From positions 1 to 33,960 of the forward strand of contig CAKZVK010000090.1 in the NCBI GenBank assembly GCA_937921825.1: a DNA stretch of 33,960 nt. Reading direction: 5' to 3'. The position numbers and the translations under genes were made by a program. The notes beneath the pieces were generated by a model. It ran no database searches, was not told the DNA's origin, and worked only from the letters and a program-made list of their open reading frames with translations. The stretch is from an uncultured Saprospiraceae bacterium (GTDB lineage: Bacteria > Bacteroidota > Bacteroidia > Chitinophagales > Saprospiraceae). The stretch's first letter is position 1. Each line of letters opens with the position of its first letter. This document shows positions 20,841 to 33,960 of the stretch, piece by piece.

Positions 20841-20867
20841 TTCAATTTATCTATCAAATTAAGTACG

Positions 20868-20952
20868 ATTCCTGATCTTGAGGTCAGGGAAGAACCACTA
20901 TCTAAATGCTTGAGAATCAAGATGGTTCATTATGTATCGAACAGCAAATGTA
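20868..20952 (-). promoter_or_regulatory. fadN promoter (-7) and structured leader
   Basis: The minus strand reads TACATTTG (20952-20945), a TAnnTTTG -7 match, about 105 bp upstream of the fadN start. The leader holds nested inverted repeats: GAACCA (20892-20897) with TGGTTC (20923-20928) enclosing CTTGA/TCAAG (20909-20921), and CCTGA/TCAGG (20871-20888). These could be operator half-sites or RNA hairpins. No regulator gene is visible nearby. Confidence 0.4.
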
Positions 20953-21013
20953 AGTTGAATACAAACAAAGATATTAATATTAAATCGCATCTGTTCTATG
21001 CAGTAAAATAAGC

Positions 21014-21021
21014 TACATTTG
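21014..21021 (+). promoter_or_regulatory. Bacteroidota -7 element for the ABC-F gene
   Basis: TACATTTG matches TAnnTTTG exactly and ends 20 bp before the ABC-F start codon. TGTTC about 18 bp upstream is a weak -33 candidate. Confidence 0.5.
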
Positions 21022-21037
21022 CAGCCAAATTATCTAG

Positions 21038-22669
<1,632 letters not shown>

Positions 22670-22689
22670 TTTACAACTACAACAAAAAA

Positions 22690-22720
22690 CAAAGGGGCCG
22701 AAAAAATCAGCCCCTTCCTT
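22690..22720. terminator. Bidirectional intrinsic terminator between convergent genes
   Basis: AAGGGGC (22692-22698) pairs with GCCCCTT (22710-22716). The A-rich run on the left and the T-rich run on the right let it act on both the ABC-F gene (plus) and the PDZ gene (minus), which converge here. Confidence 0.8.
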
Positions 22721-22742
22721 TATATGTACTCTTTATAAACTA

Positions 22743-23666
22743 TTACCGTCCTAGGAATAGTACTTTACTCTTTTGCTTAGTCTCTCCTTGATCTATGACA
22801 AAATAATAAGTGCCAGGCACTTGGTCAGAAAAAGTAAAACTTGTTCTTAAGCTACCATGAAAATTCTCGATATCCTCCTTATAGACTAAAGACCCTTTGC
22901 TATCTAATATATAAAATGCTAGAGGTTCATTAGAAGGCGACTCGTACCTTAGATATGATATTTCTTTTGTAGGATTGGGAAAGACAGACAGGCTTGGCTC
23001 TATCACTTCCTCAGTAACATTAGTAAGCTCTACTATCTCCTCAAATTGAACAGGAGCTTGCTCACAGTTTTCGAAAGTAACCCTGATTGTCGGTTTACCT
23101 GCGATTACTACATCTGCATTTTTTATACTTCCACTTTTGCTGTACTCAAGATTTAGTGTCTGCCCTACCTCAGCGGATCTGACAGCCATCTGAAGATCAC
23201 AGTAGCTTGTTATTGCATGATCGCCTAAGCTATATATAACATCACCAGCTATCAAACCAAGCTGGCTTGCTGGACTCTCTTCTGCAACACTTTTCAATAT
23301 AATACCCGTAAAATTCTCATTAGAAGAACCGCTAACACCTAAAAAAGGCTTGAACACTAGGGTTTCTTTTTGACACAACTGTGCCTCACTTTTTGAGCCA
23401 CTGTAGAAGACGAAGTGTCGGATATCCTCCTTGGTATAATATCCAAACAGAGATACTCTCTGACCCTCAGGGTGGTTATTGATAATTTGTTCAAAGTTCA
23501 TCGTTTTAGCCTGCTCACTCTCATAGGTATCATGGCTCACCATCTGACCATAAGCATCGTACTTTTTTACTTGGAGAGAATTGAGGCCATTGGAATGTTG
23601 CTGACTAAAGCAAAGATTCCCAACAAATAACATCACAATACACAAATACATGTTCTTCATTAACAT
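22743..23666 (-). CDS. Secreted PDZ-domain protein with type IX secretion C-terminal domain
   Basis: A signal peptide (about 1-22, ending CFSQ) is followed by a region of unknown fold (23-110). A PDZ domain follows (about 112-195: FLGVSGSSNENFTG, ESPASQLGLIAGDVIYSLG). The C-terminal ~80 residues form a T9SS type-A sorting domain (LSVFPNPTKEISYLRYES, FYILDSKGSLVY, GTYYFVIDQGETKQKSKVLF). T9SS cargo crosses the outer membrane and is anchored at the cell surface or released. PDZ domains bind C-terminal or internal peptides, but no protease domain is present, so a binding or scaffold role is inferred. MLMKNMYL offers two nearby starts; ATG 23660 is an alternative. Confidence 0.87.
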   Translation of the reverse strand: MLMKNMYLCIVMLFVGNLCFSQQHSNGLNSLQVKKYDAYGQMVSHDTYESEQAKTMNFEQIINNHPEGQRVSLFGYYTKEDIRHFVFYSGSKSEAQLCQKETLVFKPFLGVSGSSNENFTGIILKSVAEESPASQLGLIAGDVIYSLGDHAITSYCDLQMAVRSAEVGQTLNLEYSKSGSIKNADVVIAGKPTIRVTFENCEQAPVQFEEIVELTNVTEEVIEPSLSVFPNPTKEISYLRYESPSNEPLAFYILDSKGSLVYKEDIENFHGSLRTSFTFSDQVPGTYYFVIDQGETKQKSKVLFLGR

Positions 23667-24049
23667 TGTTATTAAGTTATATAATAAATCGTTTTAGCAG
23701 CTCTCTTAGTAGATAAATAGCAGAGCTCAGTTCTATAAATTCTCAGAAAAACTGACCTGAACAGGTCAGAGGGTTGATCACAGTTCTTTTGACTAGCAAA
23801 AGAAAGCTAAGTAACTAAGTTTAACAATAAGATATTGCCTTGGTAAGGATACTTGCAGTTATGTGTAAAACAATAGGCATAAGGAACTAAATCCAATTAT
23901 GCTCGACGGCTAATTTTAGACGTTTATAACAAAATCTCAGAGAGGTCATAAATACATTACTGATCCTAATTATAACTTAATAATCAGAGGAGGAATGGCT
24001 GCTGTATAGAATCCCCTGACAAGGAACTTTTTCTTTAACATATAAGTTA
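23667..24049. other. Gene-free spacer upstream of the PDZ gene and the tRNA
   Basis: No credible ORF is visible in this AT-rich 383-bp stretch. Its clearest structure is an 18-bp palindrome, CTGACCTG-AA-CAGGTCAG (23752-23769), 86 bp upstream of the PDZ gene start and possibly an operator. An AGGAGGA followed by a four-codon ORF (23995-24009) is probably chance. Confidence 0.6.
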
Positions 24050-24057
24050 TATATTTG
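24050..24057 (+). promoter_or_regulatory. Promoter -7 element of the initiator tRNA gene
   Basis: TATATTTG matches TAnnTTTG. The expected transcription start (about 24064) falls at a small leader hairpin, CCGATT (24062-24067) with AATCGG (24074-24079), just before the tRNA, which would be removed during 5' processing. Confidence 0.6.
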
Positions 24058-24088
24058 CGCTCCGATTGAATGAAATCGGTAACAATAT

Positions 24089-24161
<73 letters not shown>

Positions 24162-24166
24162 CTAAG

Positions 24167-24202
24167 AGTCTTGTAAGTCACTGATTTACAAGACTTTATT
24201 TT
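24167..24202 (+). terminator. Element-borne terminator now serving the tRNA-fMet gene
   Basis: AGTCTTGTAA (24167-24176) pairs perfectly with TTACAAGACT (24186-24195) around a 9-nt loop, followed by TTATTTT. It starts at the last base of attL, so all of it except that base is element DNA. The native terminator was displaced to 33838-33878. Confidence 0.85.
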
Positions 24203-24209
24203 GCAATGT

Positions 24210-24230
24210 GGCCAAAATTGTTGCCAAAAA
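24210..24230 (+). other. Candidate integrase arm-type sites, left end
   Basis: GGCCAAAAT (24210-24218) and TTGCCAAAA (24221-24229) are close copies spaced 11 bp. Similar TTACCAAAA and TTGCCATTT words occur at the right end (33641-33706). Repeated short words near both ends are typical of arm binding by tyrosine integrases; binding here is inferred. Confidence 0.35.
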
Positions 24231-24266
24231 CAACATTTAAACACCTTCCAATACTTTGATCTTTGG

Positions 24267-24734
24267 CTATATTATTACCACCCCATCCTTTCTGACACGT
24301 ATACCATAGTCACTTAACTTATTTACAGAATAACCACTATCCAACTCATACCAATCATGTTTGGTTGGAATCATATCATTAATTTGCTTTGAAAGCGAAA
24401 TAGATTTTGAAGAAGCGCTTTTCTTTTGAATTATCAGTTTCCTTTTTTGCTTCAAAGTCTCAGGGTCCAATTTTTTCAAAGAGTCAATTTTGTTATTTAC
24501 ATCATCTAATATCTTAAACTCAGAAATCAGATTAGGTAGCAGTTCATCAATTTTATTACTGACCGAATTGAAACTCTTATTCAAAGCAAAAACAATAGAT
24601 TTGGATTCAGATAATCTTTTCTCTAATTCATCTATTTCTTCATTATCATTTGTAGATTCTAACATTGATTCAAATTGCTCAATGAGTCCATTGTGCTTTG
24701 TTAGTTCCCCTTCAGGATTATACATTCCCATCAA
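24267..24734 (-). CDS. Coiled-coil protein of unknown function (element cargo)
   Basis: The 155-residue protein is mostly helical, with long heptad-like stretches (about 15-45 and 60-115: FESMLESTNDNEEIDELEKR, DDVNNKIDSLKKLDPETL). A short C-terminal globular piece follows, DWYELDSGYSVNKLSDYGIRVRKDGVVII. There is no signal peptide and no membrane segment. It is the gene nearest attL, transcribed toward the tRNA, and stands alone. I recognise no family. Its position at the end of the element opposite the integrase is where satellites and prophages often carry accessory (for example defence or superinfection) genes, but nothing in its sequence shows such a role. Confidence 0.65.
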   Translation of the reverse strand: MMGMYNPEGELTKHNGLIEQFESMLESTNDNEEIDELEKRLSESKSIVFALNKSFNSVSNKIDELLPNLISEFKILDDVNNKIDSLKKLDPETLKQKRKLIIQKKSASSKSISLSKQINDMIPTKHDWYELDSGYSVNKLSDYGIRVRKDGVVII

Positions 24735-24896
24735 AAGATATTTTTTATTGTTTGATAAAAACTATAGAATCAATTGGTGTTTCGTTTCTACATATCCACA
24801 TAAGCCCAAAAACAACCCATAATCAATAAATACAACCCTTTGTCATTTTCTTTAAAGTTAGAAATTAAATATTCCTATGTTCGGAAAAAAGGAAAT

Positions 24897-25292
24897 ATGA
24901 AAACACTTATTCTATTTATTGGATTTGCCTTCACTGTAGCAAGTCAAATGTCAAATTGCGGAAGTAATAGCAATGGTGATGAATGTATTGAAGTAAATGA
25001 AGTAAATGCATCAAGATTATCTAACACATCAGCAAAGGTGAGTTGGTCGCATAGCTGCCTTCAATGTAGTTCGTGGAAATTAGGAAGCAAAAGGAAATTT
25101 TTGGGAGTATTCCCATTTTGGTACAGCTGGGAAACAATTAACGAGCCATTAGGTAACTCTTTTCTTGGATACGATGTGGTTAAAGTAGGGCTAAAAAAGA
25201 ATAAAAAATACAAGTTTAAAGTTAAAGCAAATAATATGGGGGTTACGTGCAATTCAAGCACAATCGGCACCTCCGATCAAGTAGATCTGTAA
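24897..25292 (+). CDS. Small exported protein with a fibronectin-III-like fold (element cargo)
   Basis: A signal peptide (1-16) is followed by QMSNC, an imperfect lipobox, so the product may be a lipoprotein anchored at C21 or a plain secreted protein. The rest looks like one FnIII-like beta-sandwich: VNEVNASRLSNTSAKVSWSH for the first strands and VKVGLKKNKKYKFKVKANN for the late strands. Several Cys residues (C55, C57, C67-like spacing) could pair in the periplasm. ATG 24897 is preferred over an upstream TTG because it places the hydrophobic segment at the N-terminus and follows an AAAAAAGGA stretch. It is one of only two plus-strand genes in the element, consistent with a lysogenic-conversion-type surface gene. 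The function is unknown. Confidence 0.65.
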   Translation: MKTLILFIGFAFTVASQMSNCGSNSNGDECIEVNEVNASRLSNTSAKVSWSHSCLQCSSWKLGSKRKFLGVFPFWYSWETINEPLGNSFLGYDVVKVGLKKNKKYKFKVKANNMGVTCNSSTIGTSDQVDL

Positions 25293-25307
25293 AAATTTTA
25301 GGTTAGA

Positions 25308-25339
25308 TAATAAAAGCCCCTAGAATCAATCTAGAGGCT
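25308..25339 (-). terminator. Terminator of the two-gene cargo operon
   Basis: AGCCCCTAGA (25315-25324) pairs with TCTAGAGGCT (25330-25339) with one mismatch and a 5-nt loop. Read on the minus strand it ends in TTTTATT. It lies 36 bp after the stop codon of the 25375-25944 gene. Confidence 0.75.
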
Positions 25340-25374
25340 AATCATACCGCAATGCCATTAACAAAATATATTCC

Positions 25375-25944
25375 TTATGCAGCTTCGTACTTACTCCATT
25401 CGCTTTCTGTAAGCCCTCTACCGTTCTTAGTTCTGCTTATAAATCCGTGTCCTGATCTTGGTGGTAATAGTTCGTCATTCTCTCTATGTGCAGCATACAG
25501 ATGATTTTCTGATATGATAGTGTTTAAGCTAGTTAAGATTGTAAGCAAGGTTCTTACTTCCTTTTCTGCTTCATTCTGTAAAGATGTAACCGCTGCATCA
25601 TGTTGTAACCAAGTCAACCTATTTACAAAATCGGGAAAGTTAGCTTTACTCTTAATATGCTGTTCACCATCAAGAACTAAATAATGGATTATGTCACTAA
25701 CGATATAGCAGTTATCAGTATCGAATTTATCATTACCGAAAACATACTTTAACATTGCATTCATGAGACCGACTATTGATAGTCCTTCATCACCTTTGCC
25801 CTTGTAGCTGTTAGGGTCTTTGAGTATAGAAATTATCCTGTTGTAAATCTTCTCAGAGAGAGAATAAACTTCATCTTCTAGCTTGTCAAAGATGATTGAA
25901 GATTGATTATAAAGGTCTTGTAGTTCAGTAAGTTTAATATCCAT
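25375..25944 (-). CDS. Hypothetical helical protein (element)
   Basis: The 189-residue protein is mainly helical (LQDLYNQSSIIFDKLEDEVY, GLMNAMLKYVFGNDKF, LQNEAEKEVRTLLTILTSLN). A basic C-terminus follows, with PPRSGHGFISRTKNGRGLTESEW, a stretch that could bind nucleic acid. There is no signal peptide, membrane helix or known motif. It lies 31 bp downstream of the 25976 gene on the same strand, ends at an intrinsic terminator, and so belongs to the operon controlled by the triple operator at 26553-26626. I do not recognise the family. Confidence 0.65.
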   Translation of the reverse strand: MDIKLTELQDLYNQSSIIFDKLEDEVYSLSEKIYNRIISILKDPNSYKGKGDEGLSIVGLMNAMLKYVFGNDKFDTDNCYIVSDIIHYLVLDGEQHIKSKANFPDFVNRLTWLQHDAAVTSLQNEAEKEVRTLLTILTSLNTIISENHLYAAHRENDELLPPRSGHGFISRTKNGRGLTESEWSKYEAA

Positions 25945-25975
25945 TTCTTTTGATTTGTGATTTATGAAAAAGTGA

Positions 25976-26551
25976 CTATGCAGCCACTTGTAAGAGTCTT
26001 TCTATTCTAAACATTCTCCACCCGTCTTTCTCAGTGTCGTAGTACTTGATTGCATCGGGTTTAGATTCTGTTCTTACTCCTTTGCCCGTGAAAGCATACA
26101 AAGAGCCATTTAAAGTGCCTGTAGCCGTTCTAATAGCTCCTGTGGCCTTTCTGTAACTAAATGATACGATTCCATTCTTTAGGGCTTTAACTGTCTTGTA
26201 TGCTCTCCATGCAGCTTTCAGGCATTCAGAGAATGTTGCATAAATCCCCTTCTTCATGTAGTACCAAGCATTAGAAAAGATTGTAGATAGTTTGGACGGT
26301 TCAACTTCTGTTGCTTCAGGTAGATTCTCAAAGTATTCAGCAAAGTATCTATTTACAAACTCCTTGTCCTGAGTTATCATACCTCTAAGCTCAATTAGCT
26401 GATCTTGTGTCAATGCCTCTAATTGTGCTTTCACTTGCCTTTCTTGTCTGCTGCCTAAGTTGTATTCCTTACCGTCCTTCATTTCATAGAAGTAAACAAA
26501 ATCTTCGTTTAAGGTCTTTGCTAGTTCGTTGATGTTGGTTGTGTTATTCAT
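25976..26551 (-). CDS. Phage-type protein with C-terminal SH3-like beta-barrel segment
   Basis: The N-terminal half is acidic and helical (LAKTLNEDFVYFYEMKDGK, ALTQDQLIELRGMIT). The C-terminal part, LKNGIVSFSYRKATGAIRTA then GTLNGSLYAF and YYDTEKDGWRMFRIERLLQ, resembles the small SH3 beta-barrel (DUF2693-like) proteins common in Bacteroidota phages. I recall that family from pattern, so the assignment is tentative. I chose ATG 26551, which starts MNNTTNINEL directly after operator 1; an ATG at 26560 would add MFT and overlap that operator. A TATATTTG -7 element lies at 26578-26571, between operators 1 and 2. It leads a two-gene operon. Confidence 0.6.
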   Translation of the reverse strand: MNNTTNINELAKTLNEDFVYFYEMKDGKEYNLGSRQERQVKAQLEALTQDQLIELRGMITQDKEFVNRYFAEYFENLPEATEVEPSKLSTIFSNAWYYMKKGIYATFSECLKAAWRAYKTVKALKNGIVSFSYRKATGAIRTATGTLNGSLYAFTGKGVRTESKPDAIKYYDTEKDGWRMFRIERLLQVAA

Positions 26552-26552
26552 G

Positions 26553-26626
26553 GTAAACATTTTGTGTACCCAAATATACGGTAAACATTTTGTTTACTCC
26601 AAATATTCAGTAAACATTTTGTGTAC
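26553..26626. promoter_or_regulatory. Triple palindromic operator between divergent promoters
   Basis: Three 17-bp copies occur at 26553-26569, 26581-26597 and 26610-26626, starting 28 and 29 bp apart. The middle one, GTAAACATTTTGTTTAC, is a perfect 7-3-7 palindrome; the outer two differ by one base (GTGTAC end). The leftward -7 element TATATTTG (26578-26571) sits between copies 1 and 2, and the rightward TACCTTTG (26634-26641) lies just past copy 3. A dimeric repressor binding here would control both directions; the adjacent 69-residue protein is the obvious candidate. Confidence 0.75.
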
Positions 26627-26633
26627 TTTTCTT

Positions 26634-26641
26634 TACCTTTG
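26634..26641 (+). promoter_or_regulatory. -7 element of the small regulator gene, probably leaderless
   Basis: TACCTTTG matches TAnnTTTG and ends only five bases before the ATG at 26647. Transcription would begin at or next to the start codon, implying a leaderless mRNA. Confidence 0.55.
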
Positions 26642-26646
26642 TACCT

Positions 26647-26856
26647 ATGGCAAACAAAAAGAGACTAACAAAGGAAGAAGCACTTGAATATTGCTTCGAG
26701 CAAATAACACCATCTGTATTAACTGATAAAGATGAGTACAATAAGTACAAGACTTACAGACAAAGAATTAAAACAGGCAAAGCAGGAAAGAACGCTATAC
26801 AAACTCTATTTGATAGGTTTGGCGTCTCTGAAAATTGCTACTACACAATTGAGTAA
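26647..26856 (+). CDS. Small basic protein, candidate Cro-like regulator
   Basis: The 69-residue product reads KKRLTKEEALEYCFEQI, KYKTYRQRIKTGKAGK and NAIQTLFDRFGVSENCYY. The helical, basic composition with a short recognition-helix-like segment fits a small DNA-binding protein of the type seen in Bacteroidota phages, although no profile could be run. It is divergent from the 25976-26551 operon, and three palindromic operators lie between the two starts. This arrangement suggests that it represses both promoters. It converges with terL, whose stop is 28 bp away. No Shine-Dalgarno is visible, in line with the predicted leaderless mRNA. Confidence 0.6.
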   Translation: MANKKRLTKEEALEYCFEQITPSVLTDKDEYNKYKTYRQRIKTGKAGKNAIQTLFDRFGVSENCYYTIE

Positions 26857-26883
26857 TTATTTAACAACTTGCTCTAGTGGTAG

Positions 26884-28314
26884 TTAAGATTCAGTCAAAT
26901 ACTCATACTTCTCTTTCCACCTTCTGACACCTCTATATCCATTTTCAAACATTGCCCCTATCAAATAATCAAAGGCATCACTAGCATCATGCAAATGTCC
27001 ATTATCTCTGTTCTTGTATTTCTTCTTATCCTTAGTTCTAACGGCTTTTTTTAAGTCATCAATTAGTACTGTGTTACCATCCTTATTAAAGCCCATAGGA
27101 ATAGTTCTCATAACCTCGTGAGTCATATCAAATATCCATTCAAAGTGAGAATGACCAGACTTGTATCTTCTTAGATGATTTGCGCTAATCATAAACTTAT
27201 CCAGTATCCTATCAAAGTCATTTATTCCACCCCTACTGTTCCGAGAATACCCACTATTATCGCCTGTAACTCTCAACCCCATTTTGTCCGCATAGTCTAG
27301 GATATTGTAATCACTTATAAGCACATCACACAAAGCCTCTGTACCACCAGTAACCTGAACTGTATCATAAATGTATAGACCAAAGTCATCAATCAATTGT
27401 GCTATAATACATGTACAAGGGTCATAGTTGAAATCAAAAGACAACCATACAAATTCATTAGGGTTAATCTCTAAACGGTTTCTTCTTACAAGTGAGGAAT
27501 GCGCACTTAGAAATAATGGATAAAATGGATTCTCGTTATCTATAATATTCCAGTCCCCGTTTACGAACATTTCAAAATCCTGTGAAGACATAACCTCTTT
27601 TTTATTCTCTATCCAGTCCTCACTAATATTAGGGTTATCATAGACGCTTGAAGGTAAATAACTGAATCGTTCGGGCAATGTGCCAGTAATCCACTTGTCG
27701 TATATTTCTTTCTTAATCCAATTAGGTGAAGGGTTGCATGTAGATGCTATTATTCTTGGAGGAATCTCAATTCCATTATCTAAGCTTTTCTGCCTTTCCT
27801 TCATCTTCCATGTTCCTACACGTTCAAATGATTTTTGCCAAGTCTTCTTATGAATTCCTGATATCTCTTCAAATAGAAATCCATCAACTTCCAGTCCTTT
27901 GAAATCCTCTAAATATTTGAATTGACTATCGAAGTTTTCAGCAAAGAATATTATTTCCAAACCACCTTTAAACTTGCAGATATAACCATTGTGAGAAGTA
28001 GGCATTTGCTCAATCTCTTCTTGGTCAAATACTTCCCAAAACTTGGGCATGGTCTGACTTGTGAATTGTGGCCTATCCTCTCTTATCATAGCATATCTTG
28101 GATACTGGTCACCAAACTTTAGATTAATCTGATCTAGCAGAAACATAAGAGCAATTGACTTACCACCTCTTACAGATCCCCCGTAATTAATATAATCGTA
28201 ATTACCACTAAAACATGTAGTTAGAAACTCCTGCTGCTTATCAAAAGGGATTCTTTCTAGCAGTCGATGAGAATCCTCATTATAGCTCCTGAGCTGTGTA
28301 ATTCCCTTCACCAT
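26884..28314 (-). CDS. terL: Phage terminase large subunit (packaging ATPase-nuclease)
   Basis: This is the motor and headful/cos nuclease of DNA packaging. The ATPase domain has Walker A GGSVRGGKS (45-53), Walker B VDGFLFEE with E149/E150, and a coupling motif STCNPSP (191-197). The RNase-H-like nuclease domain keeps its acidic residues: D294 in SFDFNYDP, D352 in GDNSGYSRN and D443/D446 in HLHDASDAFDYL. At 476 residues it is complete. The start overlaps the terS end by 35 bp, and it is the last gene of the seven-gene rep-packaging operon. No portal gene follows, which is the usual neighbour in phages. This is the key sign that the element depends on a helper for heads. Confidence 0.93.
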   Translation of the reverse strand: MVKGITQLRSYNEDSHRLLERIPFDKQQEFLTTCFSGNYDYINYGGSVRGGKSIALMFLLDQINLKFGDQYPRYAMIREDRPQFTSQTMPKFWEVFDQEEIEQMPTSHNGYICKFKGGLEIIFFAENFDSQFKYLEDFKGLEVDGFLFEEISGIHKKTWQKSFERVGTWKMKERQKSLDNGIEIPPRIIASTCNPSPNWIKKEIYDKWITGTLPERFSYLPSSVYDNPNISEDWIENKKEVMSSQDFEMFVNGDWNIIDNENPFYPLFLSAHSSLVRRNRLEINPNEFVWLSFDFNYDPCTCIIAQLIDDFGLYIYDTVQVTGGTEALCDVLISDYNILDYADKMGLRVTGDNSGYSRNSRGGINDFDRILDKFMISANHLRRYKSGHSHFEWIFDMTHEVMRTIPMGFNKDGNTVLIDDLKKAVRTKDKKKYKNRDNGHLHDASDAFDYLIGAMFENGYRGVRRWKEKYEYLTES

Positions 28315-28768
28315 CTTTTCTTACTATTGCTAGTTTCTTAATACTCTCTTTCTTTACTTCTTTCTTATCTACAAGGCCTAGCATTCGAGATATAATGTTT
28401 GCATTAAATATTCCTACTGCTGCCCTCTCAAATTGCTGCACCTCGATAATTTGTTTAATCTGGTCAATGACAGCCATAAAACCTTCTGCCGATTTGTTAT
28501 TAGACTTAAAGTTTCTAAAGTAATTCTCTGAGCATCCTAAGTAACTACATAGGCCAACGAGAGTAAAAGGTCGCTCCAATTCTACCCTTACAGATTTACC
28601 AAACTCAGGGCCAGCTTTTACAGGAATAGACTTTTCTAAGGGGTTGTCACAACACCATTCAAAATATTTACATGCCTCCTCCCACAAGAGTTGAGGACTG
28701 TCAAACAACTTATTTCGCCCATGCTTACTTCTGAACTTCCAAAAGGCGTTTTTCTTAGGTGCTGGCAT
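28280..28768 (-). CDS. terS: Phage terminase small subunit
   Basis: The small subunit recognises the pac or cos site and loads the large subunit. The 162 residues contain SPQLLWEEACKYFEWCCDNP, FTLVGLCSYLGCSENYFRNF (helix-turn-helix-like, about 85-105) and IKQIIEVQQFERAAVGIFNANI, then SRMLGLVDKKE. These follow the order of the gp3-like terminase small subunit family of Bacteroidota phages. It starts one base inside the stop codon of the upstream gene (TAATG overlap), and its last 35 bp overlap terL, so the three are translationally coupled. In characterised satellites, an own small terminase redirects helper packaging to the island; that role here is inferred. Confidence 0.88.
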   Translation of the reverse strand: MPAPKKNAFWKFRSKHGRNKLFDSPQLLWEEACKYFEWCCDNPLEKSIPVKAGPEFGKSVRVELERPFTLVGLCSYLGCSENYFRNFKSNNKSAEGFMAVIDQIKQIIEVQQFERAAVGIFNANIISRMLGLVDKKEVKKESIKKLAIVRKDGEGNYTAQEL

Positions 28769-29085
28769 TACTTATGTGTTACTTGTTCTGACAATATTGT
28801 AGTAGTATTAATCTTTTCAATATCTATAGAGTATGAAGTATTATTGGCTTTCAATTGCTCCAATATTTCTTCTAAGGTGTTGCCCCAATAAACTCTTCCT
28901 TTAACAGGCTTAAAGTGCAGATTGATTCTTATTTCGAGCCAAGAAATATTGCTTACAAAGTGATACAACTCTGAAGTCTTAGTGATATGATGAAACCTTG
29001 CTTCCTTACTTAAATCAATGCCGTGTTCATCTTTGATTTTTTGGACGTATTGTTCTATTCTTTTCAAACCCTTTAATTCTTTCAT
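28768..29085 (-). CDS. Hypothetical protein upstream of terS
   Basis: The 105-residue protein starts with a basic helical segment (MKELKGLKRIEQYVQKIKDE). A mixed alpha/beta part follows (ISWLEIRINLHFKPVKGRVYWGN, TLEEILEQLKANNTSYSIDI). It has no known motif or signal peptide. Its position between the helicase loader and the terminase genes, with TAATG coupling to terS, suggests a role in replication or packaging, for example as an adaptor. I do not recognise the family. Confidence 0.65.
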   Translation of the reverse strand: MKELKGLKRIEQYVQKIKDEHGIDLSKEARFHHITKTSELYHFVSNISWLEIRINLHFKPVKGRVYWGNTLEEILEQLKANNTSYSIDIEKINTTTILSEQVTHK

Positions 29086-29126
29086 TTTATTGATTTTAAT
29101 TTTTTAACTCAGATTTATTTCCTTAT

Positions 29127-29963
29127 TCAGTCTGCATTTATTCTGTGGTCCTTACCCTCTATATGAATGAAGTTGAACATCTCATGAAACCTCGAATAAA
29201 TTCGTTTATCATACTTTTCTTTTATCCTCTCGGGCTTCAGATTAGAAGTACAATGAGTTAGTAGTTGTTTGTTATATCTTGCCGTTAGAATCATTTCCAT
29301 ACAATCGACTTTTGTACCGTATATTTTACATTCTTGTTCTTGGGCTAAATCGTCAAAAGCAAAGTCATAGCCATAGAGGAATCTCCTTTGTGTATAGTCT
29401 CTTAGACTTGAAGCATCACTAGACATTATCACCTCTGAAACGATTTCTTTGGCTGACACGAGCTTTATCTTTTTTATTTCTGTGCCTTTGGCAAACCTGC
29501 TAAAAGCTTCAAGGATTGTGGTTTTACCAGTACCAGTATCACCGTACAGATACAGACCTTTCGATAAATCATATTTTGACTTTGGGTCATTCATGAAGTA
29601 CAGAACAAGGTCTCTTAGTATCTCCTTTTTCTTTTTGTCAAATTCTAGTTTCTCTTTGCCTGTAAGCCGCATTAAAATTTCCATGAAGTTGTTAGCTGCG
29701 TACTTATAAGTTAGCCCCTCTACAGTTTTTAACTTCTTTGGCCTATTGAATTCTTTCAGAACTTTATTGAAAGGATTAATAACTTCTACTTGGGCATTTT
29801 CTTGCTTTGGTTGTCGCTCTTTCTTTGGCTGTCGTTCCATCTCTCTTATCAATTCGTCTACTGTTACCGACTTAGGATTTAGCTCTTCCTCTGACAAAGA
29901 TTCTCTTATGTGTTTTGGCATGTCACTTGTAGTCATCTTCCCAACTGTTTTTTGATTCGTCAT
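29127..29963 (-). CDS. DnaC-like AAA+ ATPase, helicase loader
   Basis: The disordered basic N-terminus (1-75, with a repeated RQPK/ERQPK stretch) is followed by an AAA+ core. The core has Walker A GDTGTGKTT (141-149), Walker B FAFDD (201-205), sensor-1-like THCTSNL (237-242) and an arginine-finger region YDKRIYSRFHEM. This is the DnaC/IstB-type architecture. Its place next to the DnaD-like initiator suggests that it loads the host replicative helicase at the element origin. It has 278 residues and overlaps the initiator gene by 41 bp, which implies coupling. Confidence 0.88.
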   Translation of the reverse strand: MTNQKTVGKMTTSDMPKHIRESLSEEELNPKSVTVDELIREMERQPKKERQPKQENAQVEVINPFNKVLKEFNRPKKLKTVEGLTYKYAANNFMEILMRLTGKEKLEFDKKKKEILRDLVLYFMNDPKSKYDLSKGLYLYGDTGTGKTTILEAFSRFAKGTEIKKIKLVSAKEIVSEVIMSSDASSLRDYTQRRFLYGYDFAFDDLAQEQECKIYGTKVDCMEMILTARYNKQLLTHCTSNLKPERIKEKYDKRIYSRFHEMFNFIHIEGKDHRINAD

Positions 29964-30708
29964 TTAATTTATTATTTGCTTCCATTGACTCACCTTTGCT
30001 TCTTCGCTCCCTTACATCTATCATATAGTTATCGAAATTTGACAATCTGAAAATTGTCTTTGGCTTTAAATTGCGCCTCATCTTTTCGCTATCCTGCCAT
30101 TCCGATTTTTTTAAGAGGGAGACATCTTTAATATCCTGTAGGTTATACTGCTTTAAAAGTGTCTTAACTAACTTTCTGTGGCTTTCCGTTTTTATTTTCA
30201 AACCACTTGCAATATTCTCTTTGAAGAAGGTAAGCGCAGCGTCTATTTTTTCTTCTATAGTATTGTCTTGTATAGTCTTACTTTCTATAGTCTTACTACT
30301 TATAGTATTACTTGTATGCAATTCACCGTCATCGGCTGAGCCGTTTACGGGTATCCGTTCATCGGCTTTCCGTTCATCGGTTTCCCCGTTATCGGTATTT
30401 CGCAAATCGGGTTTAGGTGATATAATCCATTCTGCACCCCCAAAGACACCTTTCTTGTTCTTGCTCTGTATTCGCTTCAGGTAGCCAGCTTGTTCTAATT
30501 CCTTTGCATAAAGCGTTATCTTATAGTTTGTGTCTTTCGTTTGCGCCGCTGCTCCTGCAACTGAATACTGCCAGCCTTTAGGCTTTGACCATACATAGGC
30601 CCAAAGTCCTTTTGCACCAAATGACAATTCAGTATGATTAAGAATCTCATTCGGGGTAGGCGTCCAGTTCTTACCTAGTTTGGTAACTTTTGCTTTTGCT
30701 TCACTCAT
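29923..30708 (-). CDS. DnaD-like replication initiator carrying internal 15-bp iterons
   Basis: The N-terminal winged-helix domain (about 1-95: NWTPTPNEILNHTELSFGAK, GLWAYVWSKPKGWQYSV, GYLKRI) resembles phage replication initiators. Residues of about 98-152 form a low-complexity linker made of pentapeptides (ADERI, PVNGS, ADDGE, TISSK, TIESK, TIQDN, TIEEK), coded by 15-bp DNA repeats. The C-terminal domain ends with RNLKPKTIFRLSNFDNYMID, like the conserved phage DnaD C-terminus. The protein probably binds its own coding region, as lambda O does. It follows the 30705 gene with a 4-bp ATGA overlap and overlaps the DnaC-like gene by 41 bp. The initiator role is inferred from domain order and neighbours. 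Confidence 0.8.
   Translation of the reverse strand: MSEAKAKVTKLGKNWTPTPNEILNHTELSFGAKGLWAYVWSKPKGWQYSVAGAAAQTKDTNYKITLYAKELEQAGYLKRIQSKNKKGVFGGAEWIISPKPDLRNTDNGETDERKADERIPVNGSADDGELHTSNTISSKTIESKTIQDNTIEEKIDAALTFFKENIASGLKIKTESHRKLVKTLLKQYNLQDIKDVSLLKKSEWQDSEKMRRNLKPKTIFRLSNFDNYMIDVRERRSKGESMEANNKLNDESKNSWEDDYK
30256..30420 (-). repeat. Two-block 15-bp iteron array, candidate replication origin
   Basis: Block A has four TATAGT-starting units at 30256, 30271, 30286 and 30301 (for example TATAGTCTTACTTTC). One transitional unit at 30316 ends in CCGTC. Block B has six units at 30331, 30346, 30361, 30376, 30391 and 30406, starting ATCGG (TACGG in the second), for example ATCGGCTTTCCGTTC. All eleven units share one 15-bp register. 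Block A is AT-rich and block B is GC-rich, resembling an unwinding element beside initiator sites. The array is in frame inside the initiator gene. Confidence 0.8.
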
Positions 30709-31043
30709 ATTGCCAACTCAGTTTGAATAGGTTTCACCTCTGCAAGCTTCAGGTAATGAGCTAGGTTCTTGGTGACCTTGCATTTCATTTTCTCCTTAGA
30801 TTCTAAAAGCTTCCCTTCAAGTATTAGAATTTTGATGTACTGCGTAATACAGTTTATTTCAAACCCTGTGAGTTTAGAGGCCATCTTTCGAGTGACAGGC
30901 TGTCCGAATTTTTTGATTACTTCATAGAGCTTATCACAATTACGGCCTTGAGTACCCTCTGTTAACTGCCTAAAATATGCGTATGTATTCTTAATTTCCT
31001 TATTCGGATGCTTAGGACTATGTGTTCTACCTTCGTACTGCAT
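30705..31043 (-). CDS. Predicted winged-helix protein
   Basis: The 112 residues include a helical, basic core with LYEVIKKFGQPVTRKMASKLTGF followed by EINCITQYIKILILEGKLLES. This order (helix, turn, helix, then a two-strand wing ending KCKVTKN) suggests a winged-helix DNA-binding domain. It follows the HTH gene after two bases and overlaps the initiator start by four (ATGA), so it belongs to the replication-packaging operon. A role as replication accessory or regulator is inferred; I do not recognise the family. Confidence 0.65.
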   Translation of the reverse strand: MQYEGRTHSPKHPNKEIKNTYAYFRQLTEGTQGRNCDKLYEVIKKFGQPVTRKMASKLTGFEINCITQYIKILILEGKLLESKEKMKCKVTKNLAHYLKLAEVKPIQTELAI

Positions 31044-31045
31044 TT

Positions 31046-31285
31046 CTAAGCTTTGATTAGTGTTTTTCTTCCAATCTTCTTTTTCTGCAACTCTCCAATT
31101 CTGACTAATTTGTCTACCATTGAAACAGAGATATTTAACTGATCAGCTTTCTCTTTACGGGTTAGCCATATCTTTTCTTTGTGGCTTGACAGCAAATTAG
31201 ATTCAGAAATCCTAAGCAATACTCTATTTGCAATATCATCTACCAATGTATCTATTGATCTTGTACTTAATATTAAATTGTTCAT
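31046..31285 (-). CDS. Excisionase/AlpA-like helix-turn-helix protein
   Basis: The 79-residue protein has an N-terminal helical segment and a C-terminal MerR/Xis-type HTH: IWLTRKEKADQLNISVSMVDKLVRIGEL, followed by a short basic tail KKKIGRKTLIKA that would insert as a wing. Such proteins in tyrosine-integrase elements act as excision directionality factors or as activators of the replication operon. It is the first gene of the seven-gene operon toward terL. A 17-bp palindrome (31287-31303) lies one base upstream of its start codon, so it may regulate its own expression. The exact role is inferred. Confidence 0.8.
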   Translation of the reverse strand: MNNLILSTRSIDTLVDDIANRVLLRISESNLLSSHKEKIWLTRKEKADQLNISVSMVDKLVRIGELQKKKIGRKTLIKA

Positions 31286-31286
31286 C

Positions 31287-31359
31287 TGTGAAAAGTTTTC
31301 ACAATGTATGCGAGAGATAAGGCAAGATAATTTTGAGATAATTATCCTTTATGCCTTAT
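31287..31359. promoter_or_regulatory. Operator region of the replication-packaging operon
   Basis: TGTGAAAA-G-TTTTCACA (31287-31303) is a perfect 8-1-8 palindrome touching the HTH gene start. A second nested dyad lies at 31317-31359: ATAAGGCA (31317-31324) with TGCCTTAT (31352-31359), enclosing GATAATT (31326-31332) with AATTATC (31340-31346). No TAnnTTTG promoter could be placed with confidence in 31286-31428. Confidence 0.55.
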
Positions 31360-31428
31360 TTGCCTAATCAACTGATAAACAATGGTACTAGACAGAGTAA
31401 TTTGCTTATTGCTAGATAACTATCTCGC

Positions 31429-32217
31429 CTAAGAAGGGAAGTGTCTAAGATGCTGGATGACGTCTGCAGAGTTTCCTGAAGCATTTATTACATGCTCTTT
31501 GTAGTCAGGCCCCCAAGACGATGAGAAAACGTGCTTATCTTTAATATCTATATTAATGAATTCTTGATATATCCTTTGTGCAGAAACTCCTGCATACTTA
31601 TTCTTAAAATAAATAAGCATTTTTTCTTTGGGATACTGATCATATTCATTCTGCTCAAAATGGTTTTCCTTGCCTAATTCTATTTTTATCCAATGTAATA
31701 AAGCGTAATATTTTGCAGGTATTTTTTTAGTTTCTAAGTCTTGGCTTAAGATATTTCTTGGATAATCAGGGTCTATTCTGTAGCTAAGAAATTCCTTCAA
31801 TTCTTCGATTTCATAAAATTCATTTATTCCTTCACAAATAGCCTTGACAATCCCTTTCTTCTTATACCCCCTACCAAAAGCAGCCAAATATTCTTTCAAC
31901 CTTCTTTCACTATCTGAATCCAATATTTGCAAAAAATCAAAGATGTTTAGAGGCACAAAATCCCCATTAACTATGTCTTCTAAGGTTGCGCTATATTCAA
32001 CTTTAGACAGTCTGATATCAGATGCTGTGCAGCCTTTTAGTTTTGCAACTACATCAAGTGAAGAGTAAGGATAAATAATTTCGTCTCCATCAAAGACACC
32101 TATGTCTCCCCATTTTTTATACTTCCTCTTTCGCCATTCTTTCATCTCATAAGTATCATTTCTTTGTCTAAATTTAAGTTCCTCCTCCTTACTTGGTCCT
32201 TTTTTATCATTATTCAT
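31429..32217 (-). CDS. Unknown protein co-transcribed with the integrase
   Basis: The 262-residue protein has a basic N-terminus (KEEELKFRQRNDTYEMKEWRKRKYKKW). Alternating alpha/beta segments follow, and the C-terminal part is KYYALLHWIKIELGKENHFE, MLIYFKNKYAGVSAQRIYQEF and FSSSWGPDYKEHVI. It contains no known catalytic motif, signal peptide or membrane helix. Its start overlaps the integrase stop by four bases (ATGA), so the two are coupled and it could act in recombination, in lysogenic control or in interference. Genes beside integrases in Bacteroidota elements often have similar length and order, but I cannot name this one. Confidence 0.65.
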   Translation of the reverse strand: MNNDKKGPSKEEELKFRQRNDTYEMKEWRKRKYKKWGDIGVFDGDEIIYPYSSLDVVAKLKGCTASDIRLSKVEYSATLEDIVNGDFVPLNIFDFLQILDSDSERRLKEYLAAFGRGYKKKGIVKAICEGINEFYEIEELKEFLSYRIDPDYPRNILSQDLETKKIPAKYYALLHWIKIELGKENHFEQNEYDQYPKEKMLIYFKNKYAGVSAQRIYQEFINIDIKDKHVFSSSWGPDYKEHVINASGNSADVIQHLRHFPS

Positions 32218-33608
32218 ACGGCCTTTAGTTTAGGTTGGTTACTAACAATATCAGCTTCATCTTTTTTCATCAGCTTCATCAGCCTATCGGCCTTATCTTC
32301 ACTACTGACACCGATGTAGGAAAGAAATGTAGACTCCTTAGAATGACCAGTACAGGCCATCAACAATAACATTGGAAAACCTTTGTGATAGTTAATTGAT
32401 GCCCAAGTCCTACGTCCTGAGTGAGCGGAAATTTTACTGTATAGAGGCAACTTATCCTTATTTACCTTTCCTTTATCATGTACAGATACATCCACACTTT
32501 GAGTAAGACCTGCTAAACGGCAAATTACTTTTATTGTGTCATTGAATTTCTGAGAAGACATAACCGGAGCGGTATTATTGTACTTCGCAAGTAACTCAAA
32601 CAGTTTTTTATTTATCGGGATAGTAACTTCTTTTTTGCCTTTCTGCGTTTCAATTTTGATGAAATAATCCTCCCCTTTATTGATAATATTTTCAGGTTCA
32701 ATTGATGTAAAGTCACTCCATCTTAGTGAGGAATAGCACGCTACCAAAAACCAATCTTTTACTTTATCAGCAAACTCAAGTGTTATTTTTTCTTTCTTAA
32801 GTTCTTCAACATGTTCATTTAGATCACAGTCACTAATTAATTGAACTTGTTTTTCATTCAAAGCGATTATAATAGTCTTCACCCTTTTTACCCCAAACTC
32901 TTCGTCTGTAAAGATCGTGTTTGAATGCAAGTCTTCTTTGTAAGATTTTTTCAGTAGCAGTTTAATCGTTGCAAAATCCTTATTGGCAGTATTTGCACTA
33001 TTTGTACCCGTGTTATCATAGAGCCAAATAAGGTAGTTGTCGACAAAAGAAATATCAAAATCATTATAGTTGATACCTCCCCCTGTAGCCAAATGATAAG
33101 ATTTCAACTTATTAGCTACAGTAGTGTATTTCTTTATTGTGTTTTCAGAAAGAGAACTAAGGCGTTTCTTTCTCTGCGAATAATCTGAAATAAAACCAAT
33201 GAAAGTACTTGAGTCATAAGGGTCAGGACCATCCTTTATTTTTCTTCCTAGCGATCTATCTAACCTATCTTTGAAGTCAGCTAATGTTATTGAAGTATTG
33301 GAATCATAGATACTAATGATTTTTTCAGCTATTCTATCTAGTTCGTCTTTTACTGTTTTGTAATATCTAAATGTAGATGCTGGACGCTGTTTTATTGCGT
33401 TCCATTCTGAAGGTCTACAACTCTGTTTGGTTGGGTAATGTAACCGTATGTGTTTGTTTGCTGAAGGATTAAAGTATCTAAACCTAGCATAGATAGGAAC
33501 AGGCTTTTTAGCTTGCTCTGACTTTTTACTTTTGGGATTGCTTCTAAGATTAAACTTGATGTTATCTTCTGTCTGTTTCTTAGTGGCAGTTGTATTACCT
33601 TTGATCAT
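32214..33608 (-). CDS. int: Tyrosine recombinase (phage-type integrase)
   Basis: This site-specific recombinase inserts and excises the element at tRNA-fMet. The basic arm-binding N-terminus (1-120) is followed by a SAM-like core-binding domain (about 135-225: FIGFISDYSQRKKRL, NTIKKYTTVANKLKSYH) and a catalytic domain. The catalytic set is complete: R296 in SSLRWSDF, K323 in TQKGKKEV, H396-x-x-R399 in SAHSGRRTW, H422 in CTGHSKES and the nucleophile Y431 in FLSYIG. The 464-residue length and motifs fit Bacteroidota integrases. The gene starts 210 bp from attR and reads away from it. Palindromes and TTACCAAAA-like words between the gene and attR may be arm sites or its own operator. Confidence 0.94.
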   Translation of the reverse strand: MIKGNTTATKKQTEDNIKFNLRSNPKSKKSEQAKKPVPIYARFRYFNPSANKHIRLHYPTKQSCRPSEWNAIKQRPASTFRYYKTVKDELDRIAEKIISIYDSNTSITLADFKDRLDRSLGRKIKDGPDPYDSSTFIGFISDYSQRKKRLSSLSENTIKKYTTVANKLKSYHLATGGGINYNDFDISFVDNYLIWLYDNTGTNSANTANKDFATIKLLLKKSYKEDLHSNTIFTDEEFGVKRVKTIIIALNEKQVQLISDCDLNEHVEELKKEKITLEFADKVKDWFLVACYSSLRWSDFTSIEPENIINKGEDYFIKIETQKGKKEVTIPINKKLFELLAKYNNTAPVMSSQKFNDTIKVICRLAGLTQSVDVSVHDKGKVNKDKLPLYSKISAHSGRRTWASINYHKGFPMLLLMACTGHSKESTFLSYIGVSSEDKADRLMKLMKKDEADIVSNQPKLKAV

Positions 33609-33640
33609 ATCTTAAAGTTTCGCACCTCTAAGATAAGTTA

Positions 33641-33706
33641 AATGGCAGCCAGTTTCATGGTTGCCATTTCAATTTTGGTAACATAATTGCAAATTGTTAC
33701 CAAAAT
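33641..33706. repeat. Two inverted repeats upstream of the integrase (arm sites or operator)
   Basis: ATTTTGGTAACA (33672-33683) and TGTTACCAAAAT (33695-33706) form a perfect 12-bp inverted repeat with an 11-bp spacer. AATGGCAGCC (33641-33650) and GGTTGCCATT (33659-33668) form another with one mismatch. The TTRCCAWWW word is shared with 24210-24230 at the other end, which favours integrase arm binding; an integrase operator is the alternative. Confidence 0.5.
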
Positions 33707-33818
33707 CTATTCCTAGTCCATGTTCTACTGTGAGGCTAGAAAGTTAGATATACTGTAAAAAATAGAGATTTATGATTAATGTAAAGAGTACTGAGGCACA
33801 CCAAACCAACAAATATAT

Positions 33819-33838
33819 TCCTGCCCCCGCTACTAAGA
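33819..33838 (+). repeat. attR core (20 bp)
   Basis: The sequence is identical to 24148-24167. Only the 3' portion of the tRNA is present here, not a second tRNA gene. The sequence to the right is host chromosome. Confidence 0.92.
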
Positions 33839-33878
33839 AAGACCTAATTGATTGATTATCAGTTAGGTCTTTTTATTT
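33838..33878 (+). terminator. Displaced native terminator of tRNA-fMet
   Basis: AAAGACCTAA (33838-33847) pairs perfectly with TTAGGTCTTT (33863-33872), followed by TTTATTTTC-like T-rich sequence. Before integration it would have followed the tRNA directly, at the same distance as the element-borne terminator at 24167 does now. Confidence 0.8.
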
Positions 33879-33960
33879 TCAGTCAATTAAGCAATAGAAT
33901 GTCAATTAGATAAGAACTGCTAGAATTGAGTTTCATATCTCTTTGCAGGTAGAATGAGAA

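Follow-up and report, generated by a model that had tools for sequence, protein, structure and literature searches.

Phage satellites are defined as integrated elements with an integrase between attachment (att) repeats, regulatory and replication genes and no viral structural genes, in a size range of 7-20 kb (PMC13376191; this and the other comparisons with published systems refer to excerpts of the cited papers). Here we describe an element of this kind at positions 24148-33838 of a 33,960-base stretch of DNA, hereafter the window, from an uncultured Saprospiraceae bacterium (assembly GCA_937921825.1, contig CAKZVK010000090.1). The window element has these properties, structural genes being judged absent from family searches, from its size and from a comparison with local phages. 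It is likely that the element is a satellite resembling the phage-inducible chromosomal islands (PICIs), that it packages itself into helper procapsids and that it is one of a Saprospiraceae family; as judged from its genes, it probably spreads by taking the shells of ordinary phages.

With PICIs, both those of the Staphylococcus aureus pathogenicity island (SaPI) type and those of the Gram-negative type, the element shares small size, an integrase at one end, att repeats, its own replication genes and the small terminase subunit TerS. It differs in that the window and a related element (G149, below) carry the large subunit TerL too, whereas the lack of TerL is a feature of PICIs by contrast with capsid-forming PICIs (cf-PICIs; PMC10690885). 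Further differences are that the names Stl, Rpp, Cpm and Ppi did not appear when the window was scanned against Pfam and PHROGs, that the switch consists of a WYL_2 protein and a 69-aa partner, that the host belongs to the Saprospiraceae and that some other members have a gene for a tape measure or for a phage morphogenesis-type protein. The element thus appears to work like a PICI, although as a PICI member it departs in having TerL and shares no recognised regulator with that family. Its own TerS and TerL are a likeness to cf-PICIs, which have capsid, protease, portal, connector and HNH genes besides (PMC10690885); none of these was recognised in the 14 proteins of the window element. TerS and TerL without capsid genes fit neither the classical PICI nor the cf-PICI.

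Other described satellites resemble the element in part. The phage-inducible chromosomal minimalist islands (PICMIs) of Vibrionaceae are small, lack capsid remodelling genes and carry integrase, helix-turn-helix (HTH) and replication genes, but they integrate at fis and have a primase (PMC10803314), whereas the window element lies at tRNA-fMet and has DnaD/DnaC-type genes and a terminase. AH14b of Pseudomonas has its own replication gene (a primase there) and uses helper capsids, as the window element would, but is described without a recognisable terminase (PMC4936722). MulchRoom and MiniFlayer of Streptomyces have their own terminases, yet they encode capsids and are without key replication genes (PMC10690885), the reverse of the window element. 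A 2024 review lists P4-like satellites, PICIs, cfPICIs, PICI-like elements (PLEs), PICMIs, VEIMEs, tycheposons and soil types, and in its excerpted text 'bacteroid' occurs twice, both times for non-replicating Bacteroides unit (NBU) elements, which are not satellites (PMC11389934). The cf-PICIs are called 'widely distributed across Bacteria' (PMC10690885). In excerpts of the openly accessible literature (subscription papers excluded), we found no satellite family described from Bacteroidota.

The element is bounded by a perfect 20-bp direct repeat, TCCTGCCCCCGCTACTAAGA, at 24148-24167 and 33819-33838, with a spacing of 9,671 bp. This is the sole exact 20-mer, and the sole stretch of at least 18 bases, that is present twice on the forward strand of the window. 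Both repeats included, the element spans 9,691 bp, and an excised molecule would measure 9,671 bp from the repeat spacing. Since a tRNA-Met gene occupies 24089-24162 and the left repeat starts at 24148, attL covers the 3' end of this gene. Three G-C pairs adjoining the anticodon loop and a 1:72 mismatch are visible in the tRNA; we take these to be the marks of an initiator tRNA and base the assignment on them. The repeat and tRNA searches therefore bear out the preliminary description of this DNA, which had placed perfect att repeats 9671 bp apart at a tRNA-fMet 3' end. In 1-kb steps, the GC content is 33-39% within the element versus 36-44% in the chromosomal part.

The window is the entire contig C90 of its genome (G000; G numbers denote genomes, C numbers contigs and L numbers stretches), and because only 122 bp are left beyond attR, chromosomal synteny across that end is unreadable. 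A search with the tRNA locus matched 9 of 14 genomes of the genus, the own genome included. Among the eight others, three are integrase-free (G302, G251 and G304), one carries the G135 island described below and four are unreadable owing to contig ends or partial matches. An element-free tRNA-fMet locus had been suggested as a check; integrase-free loci were found in the three relatives, but their flanking genes are partly or not syntenic, hence they are not strict empty sites.

Of the 41 open reading frames (ORFs) of at least 50 aa listed in 20000-33960, 14 inside the element were taken as its genes; all 14 are uninterrupted. Scans of their proteins against Pfam and PHROGs, together with comparisons with a second element in the same genome (C73) and with other Saprospiraceae (G numbers), gave the following features (numbers after family names are E-values unless stated otherwise).

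24089-24162, plus strand: initiator-type tRNA-Met(cat), the attachment gene (ARAGORN; Rfam tRNA, 63.7 bits)
24148-24167: attL, 20-bp direct repeat
24267-24734, minus strand: 155-aa coiled-coil-like ORF, putative cargo; weak mixed matches
24840-25292, plus strand: 150-aa lipoprotein-like ORF, putative cargo; weak fn3 (PF00041, E 0.0065, below cut-off)
25375-25944, minus strand: 189-aa protein adjoining WYL_2; 91% in the C73 element, 26% in G150
25976-26560, minus strand: WYL_2 protein, 194 aa, N-terminal half plus WYL_2 domain, putative switch gene (PF10902, 7e-18)
26553-26626: three candidate operators GTAAACANNNTGTKTAC at 26553, 26581 and 26610
26647-26856, plus strand: divergent partner of 69 aa, candidate repressor; four homologues in relatives (36.9-48.4%)
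26884-28314, minus strand: TerL, 476 aa (phrog_979, 5.4e-10; no Pfam match); 40-42% to the TerL of the G068 phage region
28280-28768, minus strand: TerS, P22 gp3 type (PF16677, 1.8e-27; phrog_606, 1.4e-41)
28768-29085, minus strand: 105-aa ORF; no Pfam or PHROGs match over cut-off
29127-29963, minus strand: DnaC-like helicase loader (phrog_50, 1.5e-15)
29923-30708, minus strand: DnaD-like replication initiator (phrog_428, 7.5e-21; PF09524, 9.8e-10)
30253-30313: 15-bp repeats, 4.1 copies, within the initiator gene, candidate origin (Tandem Repeats Finder score 59, 76% matches)
30705-31043, minus strand: 112-aa winged-helix-like protein; 98% in the C73 element; weak phrog_1687 MarR (E 0.049)
31046-31285, minus strand: HTH_17 protein, Xis-like, 79 aa (PF12728, 4.8e-5, below the Pfam cut-off; phrog_2907 excisionase, weak, E 2e-4)
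31429-32217, minus strand: 262-aa protein after the integrase; no Pfam or PHROGs family
32214-33608, minus strand: tyrosine integrase, 464 aa (phrog_1, E 5.9e-28; PF00589, 1.1e-9)
33819-33838: attR, 20-bp direct repeat, adjoining a terminator-like hairpin at 33836-33874

The intact integrase, the HTH/Xis-like gene, the DnaD-like and DnaC-like genes, TerS and TerL named in the preliminary description were all recovered by these scans, the Xis-like match being weak. In TerL, an apparent Walker A motif (GGSVRGGKS), an apparent acidic Walker B motif and apparent nuclease motifs (SFDFN, GDNSG, HDASDAF) can be made out. No portal, capsid, holin or lysin family was found among the 14 proteins in Pfam or PHROGs. 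Weak matches to virion families were those of the WYL_2 protein to a tail fibre (0.044) and of the 155-aa ORF to a PmgS-like head morphogenesis protein (2.6e-4) and a tape measure (4.5e-3), the latter two of which we read as coiled-coil noise. In a control with ten genes from phage regions of this bacterial family, four matched tape measure or portal families in PHROGs and six had no match. Given this miss rate, absence in family searches is no proof, and the 14 proteins were therefore compared directly with 273 ORFs from eight phage-gene-bearing Saprospiraceae stretches (G068, G164, G119, G276, two of G107, G238 and G108). TerL matched four of these ORFs, the integrase matched one (E 0.001) and the 189-aa protein matched one TerL over a 41-residue stretch (E 0.004), while the remaining element proteins had no match among the 273. 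The earlier statement that structural and lysis genes are missing accordingly holds in that none was recognised by families or by direct phage comparison, and is tempered by the insensitivity of PHROGs here.

The same plan, with boundaries, was found in related genomes, where the preliminary description had proposed to look: there is a second element in the own genome, and four repeat-bounded elements with TerS or a TerS-like ORF lie in other Saprospiraceae (G150, G149, G144:C19 and G135). The second element, on C73, measures 7.8 kb and is flanked by 24-bp repeats; it sits at the 3' end of a gene of phosphoribosyltransferase-like type (read by eye). It contains an integrase, an HTH gene, the 112-aa protein (98%), DnaD and DnaC types, a TerS-like 134-aa ORF, a 69-aa type partner, WYL_2 (83%) and the 189-aa protein (91%); no TerL was seen in it. 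The 134-aa ORF has a short N-terminal match to a G135 ORF and to a G108 ORF directly upstream of TerL. The window and C73 elements form a mosaic of 83-98% modules and 37-49% modules, which shows that modules have been exchanged between them. Moreover, the 112-aa gene differs between the two by 13 base changes, 11 of them at third codon positions, and its frame is open, which disfavours decay.

Among the elements elsewhere, that of G150 (16 kb) occupies the same tRNA as the window element; its 23-bp repeat overlaps that of the window, its integrase is related (38-40%), and it contains a DnaD-position ORF, DnaB, a TerS-like ORF and a 616-aa protein. The G149 element (20.5 kb, 17-bp repeats in tRNA-Ala) carries an integrase, a DnaD-like initiator, DnaB, TerS (Terminase_2), TerL and a 629-aa protein; over 370 residues, this protein shares ~24% identity with the product of the gene that follows the tape measure gene in the G068 phage. 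The G144:C19 element (14.3 kb) has both contig ends in the same tRNA-Pro-like sequence (by eye; ARAGORN calls no tRNA) and contains a primase, a TerS-like ORF and a 921-aa tape measure protein (phrog_20660, 2.9e-16; 24-26% to the G119 and G164 tape measures over most of its length). A tape measure search matched 5 of 298 genomes at 1e-10, one of them being the satellite itself. In the same genus as the window, G135 (G135:C25; L103:3106-14628, L084:2016-9930) has a 21.9-kb island at tRNA-fMet with 16-bp repeats, an integrase (26% to that of the window), an HTH gene, a TerS-like ORF (43% over 101 residues to the ORF upstream of the G068 phage TerL) and the DISARM genes DrmA, DrmB and a DrmMII-like methylase; the WYL_2 search of the 298 genomes gave no match in it.

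Less complete relatives include G144:C21 (590-aa type protein after a primase, no TerS seen, boundaries not found), G070 (590-aa type protein after a primase by resemblance, no TerS seen, the contig ending inside that gene) and G246 (integrase, HTH, a replication-type ORF and a TerS-like 174-aa ORF with a short N-terminal match, no TerL seen, boundaries not found). G254 has a repeat-bounded 12.7-kb element, in which no terminase was found on reading its ORFs (no family search made), and was set aside. With the exception of G254, each of the ten listed elements thus has at least one gene of the TerS, TerS-like, TerL or phage morphogenesis type. An ORF of 221-276 aa follows the integrase in C73, G150, G149, G135 and G254, as in the window; the position is conserved and no similarity is detectable. 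The window integrase itself had matches in 5 of 296 genomes at 1e-60.

Several points weigh against the satellite reading. On family searches alone, virion genes may be present and unrecognised, and the ORFs of 262, 105, 69, 189, 150 and 155 aa are without a functional assignment after the Pfam and PHROGs scans. No close TerL relative was found in viral contigs, and hence no sign of this TerL in packaged DNA, and two phage queries revealed no resident helper in G000, a fragmented assembly of 172 contigs in which a capsid fragment ends C25. Some TerS calls are weak, namely those of C73 (134 aa; phrog_15125, unknown function, 1e-5), G150 (126 aa, assigned by position alone) and G144:C19 (below cut-off, PF16677 1.8e-4; phrog_309 2e-3), and most of the related genomes are fragmented assemblies. 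Between the window and C73, selection is less clear in the WYL_2 gene (34 synonymous and 32 non-synonymous codons) and in the 189-aa gene (19 and 17). Finally, the anatomy, integrity and recurrence of the element are observed directly, whereas we infer replication, packaging and helper use from gene families.

That neither helper nor packaged DNA is in evidence would also suit an integrative element that moves otherwise, by conjugative mobilisation or natural transformation, and keeps its terminase as an accessory phage defence or by chance; in Streptococcus, satellites that move by natural competence are reported (PMC13376191). We consider this unlikely, as the window proteins matched no relaxase or conjugation family in Pfam or PHROGs and nine of ten listed elements carry terminase-type or morphogenesis-type genes.

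A prophage stripped of its structural genes by deletion and now a dead remnant would account for phage-type terminase and replication genes and for the TerL relative in a phage region. In 298 family genomes, TerL matched six, the own included: G068 (42%), G149 (31%, C-terminal part) and three weaker ones; a search of named genomes gave nothing, and phage records gave three matches at 23-24%. The nearest relative has a tape measure gene (phrog_9959, 1.1e-62) as a neighbour and belongs to a phage region on a G068 contig. However, in the 40 of 43.6 kb of this contig that were compared, only the weak integrase match (E 0.001) was found besides TerL, and the ORF at the TerS position has no similarity to the TerS of the window. 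For these reasons a deletion copy of the G068 phage was ruled out. A remnant is likewise hard to reconcile with 14 uninterrupted ORFs, perfect att repeats, the third-position bias in the 112-aa gene common to window and C73, and a plan without recognised head genes that recurs at other sites and in other genera, so we regard this explanation as quite improbable. An autonomous mini-phage with capsid and portal too divergent for recognition, as six unassigned ORFs and the PHROGs miss rate might allow, is very improbable, because these ORFs measure 69-262 aa as against portals of 591-615 aa and capsid candidates of 364-369 aa in the phage regions, an element of 9.7 kb could hardly accommodate head, neck, tail and lysis modules, and nothing beyond TerL and weak matches links the element to local phage ORFs.

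The satellite reading of the preliminary description is therefore strengthened, since the plan recurs at other sites and the deletion test against the nearest TerL-bearing phage region failed to overturn it, with the qualification that TerL beside TerS is not the standard PICI design.

The WYL_2 protein of the switch is common to most of the elements. In PICIs, divergent regulator genes flank their operators, and defence cargo is carried as well; the divergent WYL_2/69-aa pair with three palindromes is a likeness to this arrangement, not matched to known PICI regulators. Copies of GTAAACANNNTGTKTAC between the two genes are the only mismatch-free places in the window, and with up to three mismatches there are 16 matches versus 6.0 expected. 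As read from a palindrome listing, C73, G149 and G144:C21 have three palindromes of other sequences at the same place, while in G150, G144:C19 and G223 an XRE-like gene (by reading) replaces the 69-aa gene and the palindromes are less regular. An AlphaFold2 model of the 69-aa protein has three helices (pLDDT, a predicted model confidence, 76), and a fold search found no PDB match at E <= 0.001. The fold of the WYL_2 protein bears a weak likeness to the WYL regulators PafBC, BrxR and CapW (best E 0.015). As a guess suggested by the title of one CapW structure, it might sense single-stranded DNA. Near a WYL_2 gene elsewhere, a 254-aa ORF (L082:961-1725) has two stretches like the 69-aa protein.

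WYL_2 matched 10 of the 298 family genomes, the own included, at 13 places, not all of them shown as elements: 83% in C73 and 36-45% in seven others. WYL_2 matches in G113, G223, G225, G050, G115, G511 and G522 were counted as such, not as elements. A WYL_2 alignment found no clear member outside the family, with matches in 6 of 298 genomes in the order, all from the same family or the own genome, and in 2 of 395 in the phylum at 1e-20 (the own and one C-terminal match). As a satellite-only mark, WYL_2 was rejected for its C-terminal domain, which occurs in 54 phage records (Vibrio 22, Riemerella 18, Bacteroides 7, others) and 20 viral contigs; in the phage records, the C-terminal part aligned among the matches listed. 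The N-terminal half was found in elements and at one phage-gene contig end, L013 (G238:C12), where it accompanies TerS- and TerL-like genes that could belong to a satellite or a phage. In L088 (G522), a WYL_2-type gene lies ~7 kb from a tmRNA gene, and a tmRNA also occurs in the G511 stretch L089; both are possibly further integrated elements.

Beside the switch lies a variable slot. In some elements it holds TerS, alone or together with TerL or a tape measure; in others it holds a protein of phage morphogenesis type, accompanied by TerS or not. Homologues of the 590/616-aa proteins (24-26%) occur in phage regions of G164, G119 and G107, where a portal gene and a 294-300-aa gene (MuF-like position, no family match) lie upstream of them at a distance of 0.06-1.4 kb; the portal was recognised by phrog_7376 in G164 (8.8e-15) and by similarity to G164 in G119 and G107. 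The family matches phrog_19383 (unknown function) only (590-aa protein 5e-6, 616-aa protein 0.009, G119 copy 4.4e-17). In a six-row tree, the three satellite copies split from the three phage copies on a 100/100 branch, although with so few rows, one phage row being long, 47 of 500 label shuffles do as well. A phage gene thus probably has a lineage of its own in the satellites. The portal, 294-aa gene and capsid candidate of G164 had no match in the compared satellite stretches, only in other phage regions. We read the differing gene in the slot beside TerS as an exchangeable device with which the element takes control of a single helper step. More tentatively, and a little short of an even chance, we propose a separate Saprospiraceae satellite family in which the cassette beside TerS holds a helper-type gene from differing steps of virion assembly (TerL, tape measure, post-portal protein), at least one of a satellite-specific lineage, swapped under a WYL_2/69-aa or WYL_2/XRE switch; members with TerS and TerL would supply the full packaging motor themselves and need nothing from the helper but empty procapsids and tails.

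Under the satellite reading, the 69-aa protein (an XRE-like repressor in some relatives) would hold the switch during quiescence, until a signal from a helper phage or from damage lifts the repression, with the WYL_2 protein as a possible sensor. The integrase and the Xis-like HTH protein would then excise the 9,671-bp circle, and DnaD and DnaC would bring the replicative helicase of the host onto the DNA, the 15-bp repeats in the initiator gene being a possible site; in C73 and G149, the initiator genes showed no repeats like these. The element's own TerS-TerL motor would cut concatemers, dock on the portal of a helper procapsid and fill it by the headful, and helper tails would deliver the element, whose integration would restore the tRNA.

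Some further observations concern the surroundings and cargo. Directly past attL lies a hairpin-like stretch, GTCTTGTAAGTCACTGATTTACAAGAC (24167-24200), which may be a replacement for the tRNA terminator displaced to 33836-33874; a terminator scan listed the latter hairpin but not the former, and sigma-70 promoter and terminator scans gave no excess above shuffled sequence. The listed start of the 150-aa ORF is TTG, and an internal ATG is a possible true start. At the end of contig C25 of the window's genome (L051:12842-15089), an integrase in two ORFs precedes the capsid fragment, which is of HK97 type and truncated where the contig stops; together they may represent a prophage or a satellite that forms its own capsid. 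In G135, a defence system (DISARM) stands on a satellite-like island. Beside the tRNA in G150 (L044:7827-8855) lies a metallo-beta-lactamase-fold protein, a probable defence cargo in view of its matches to the defence models LmuA (6.4e-21) and RTasMBL (5.1e-18).

If the satellite reading is true, it would extend the satellite strategy to Saprospiraceae, with a packaging design intermediate between PICI and cf-PICI. It would also raise the question of which helper step each cassette gene takes over, and whether the tape measure acts on tail length or blocks the helper.

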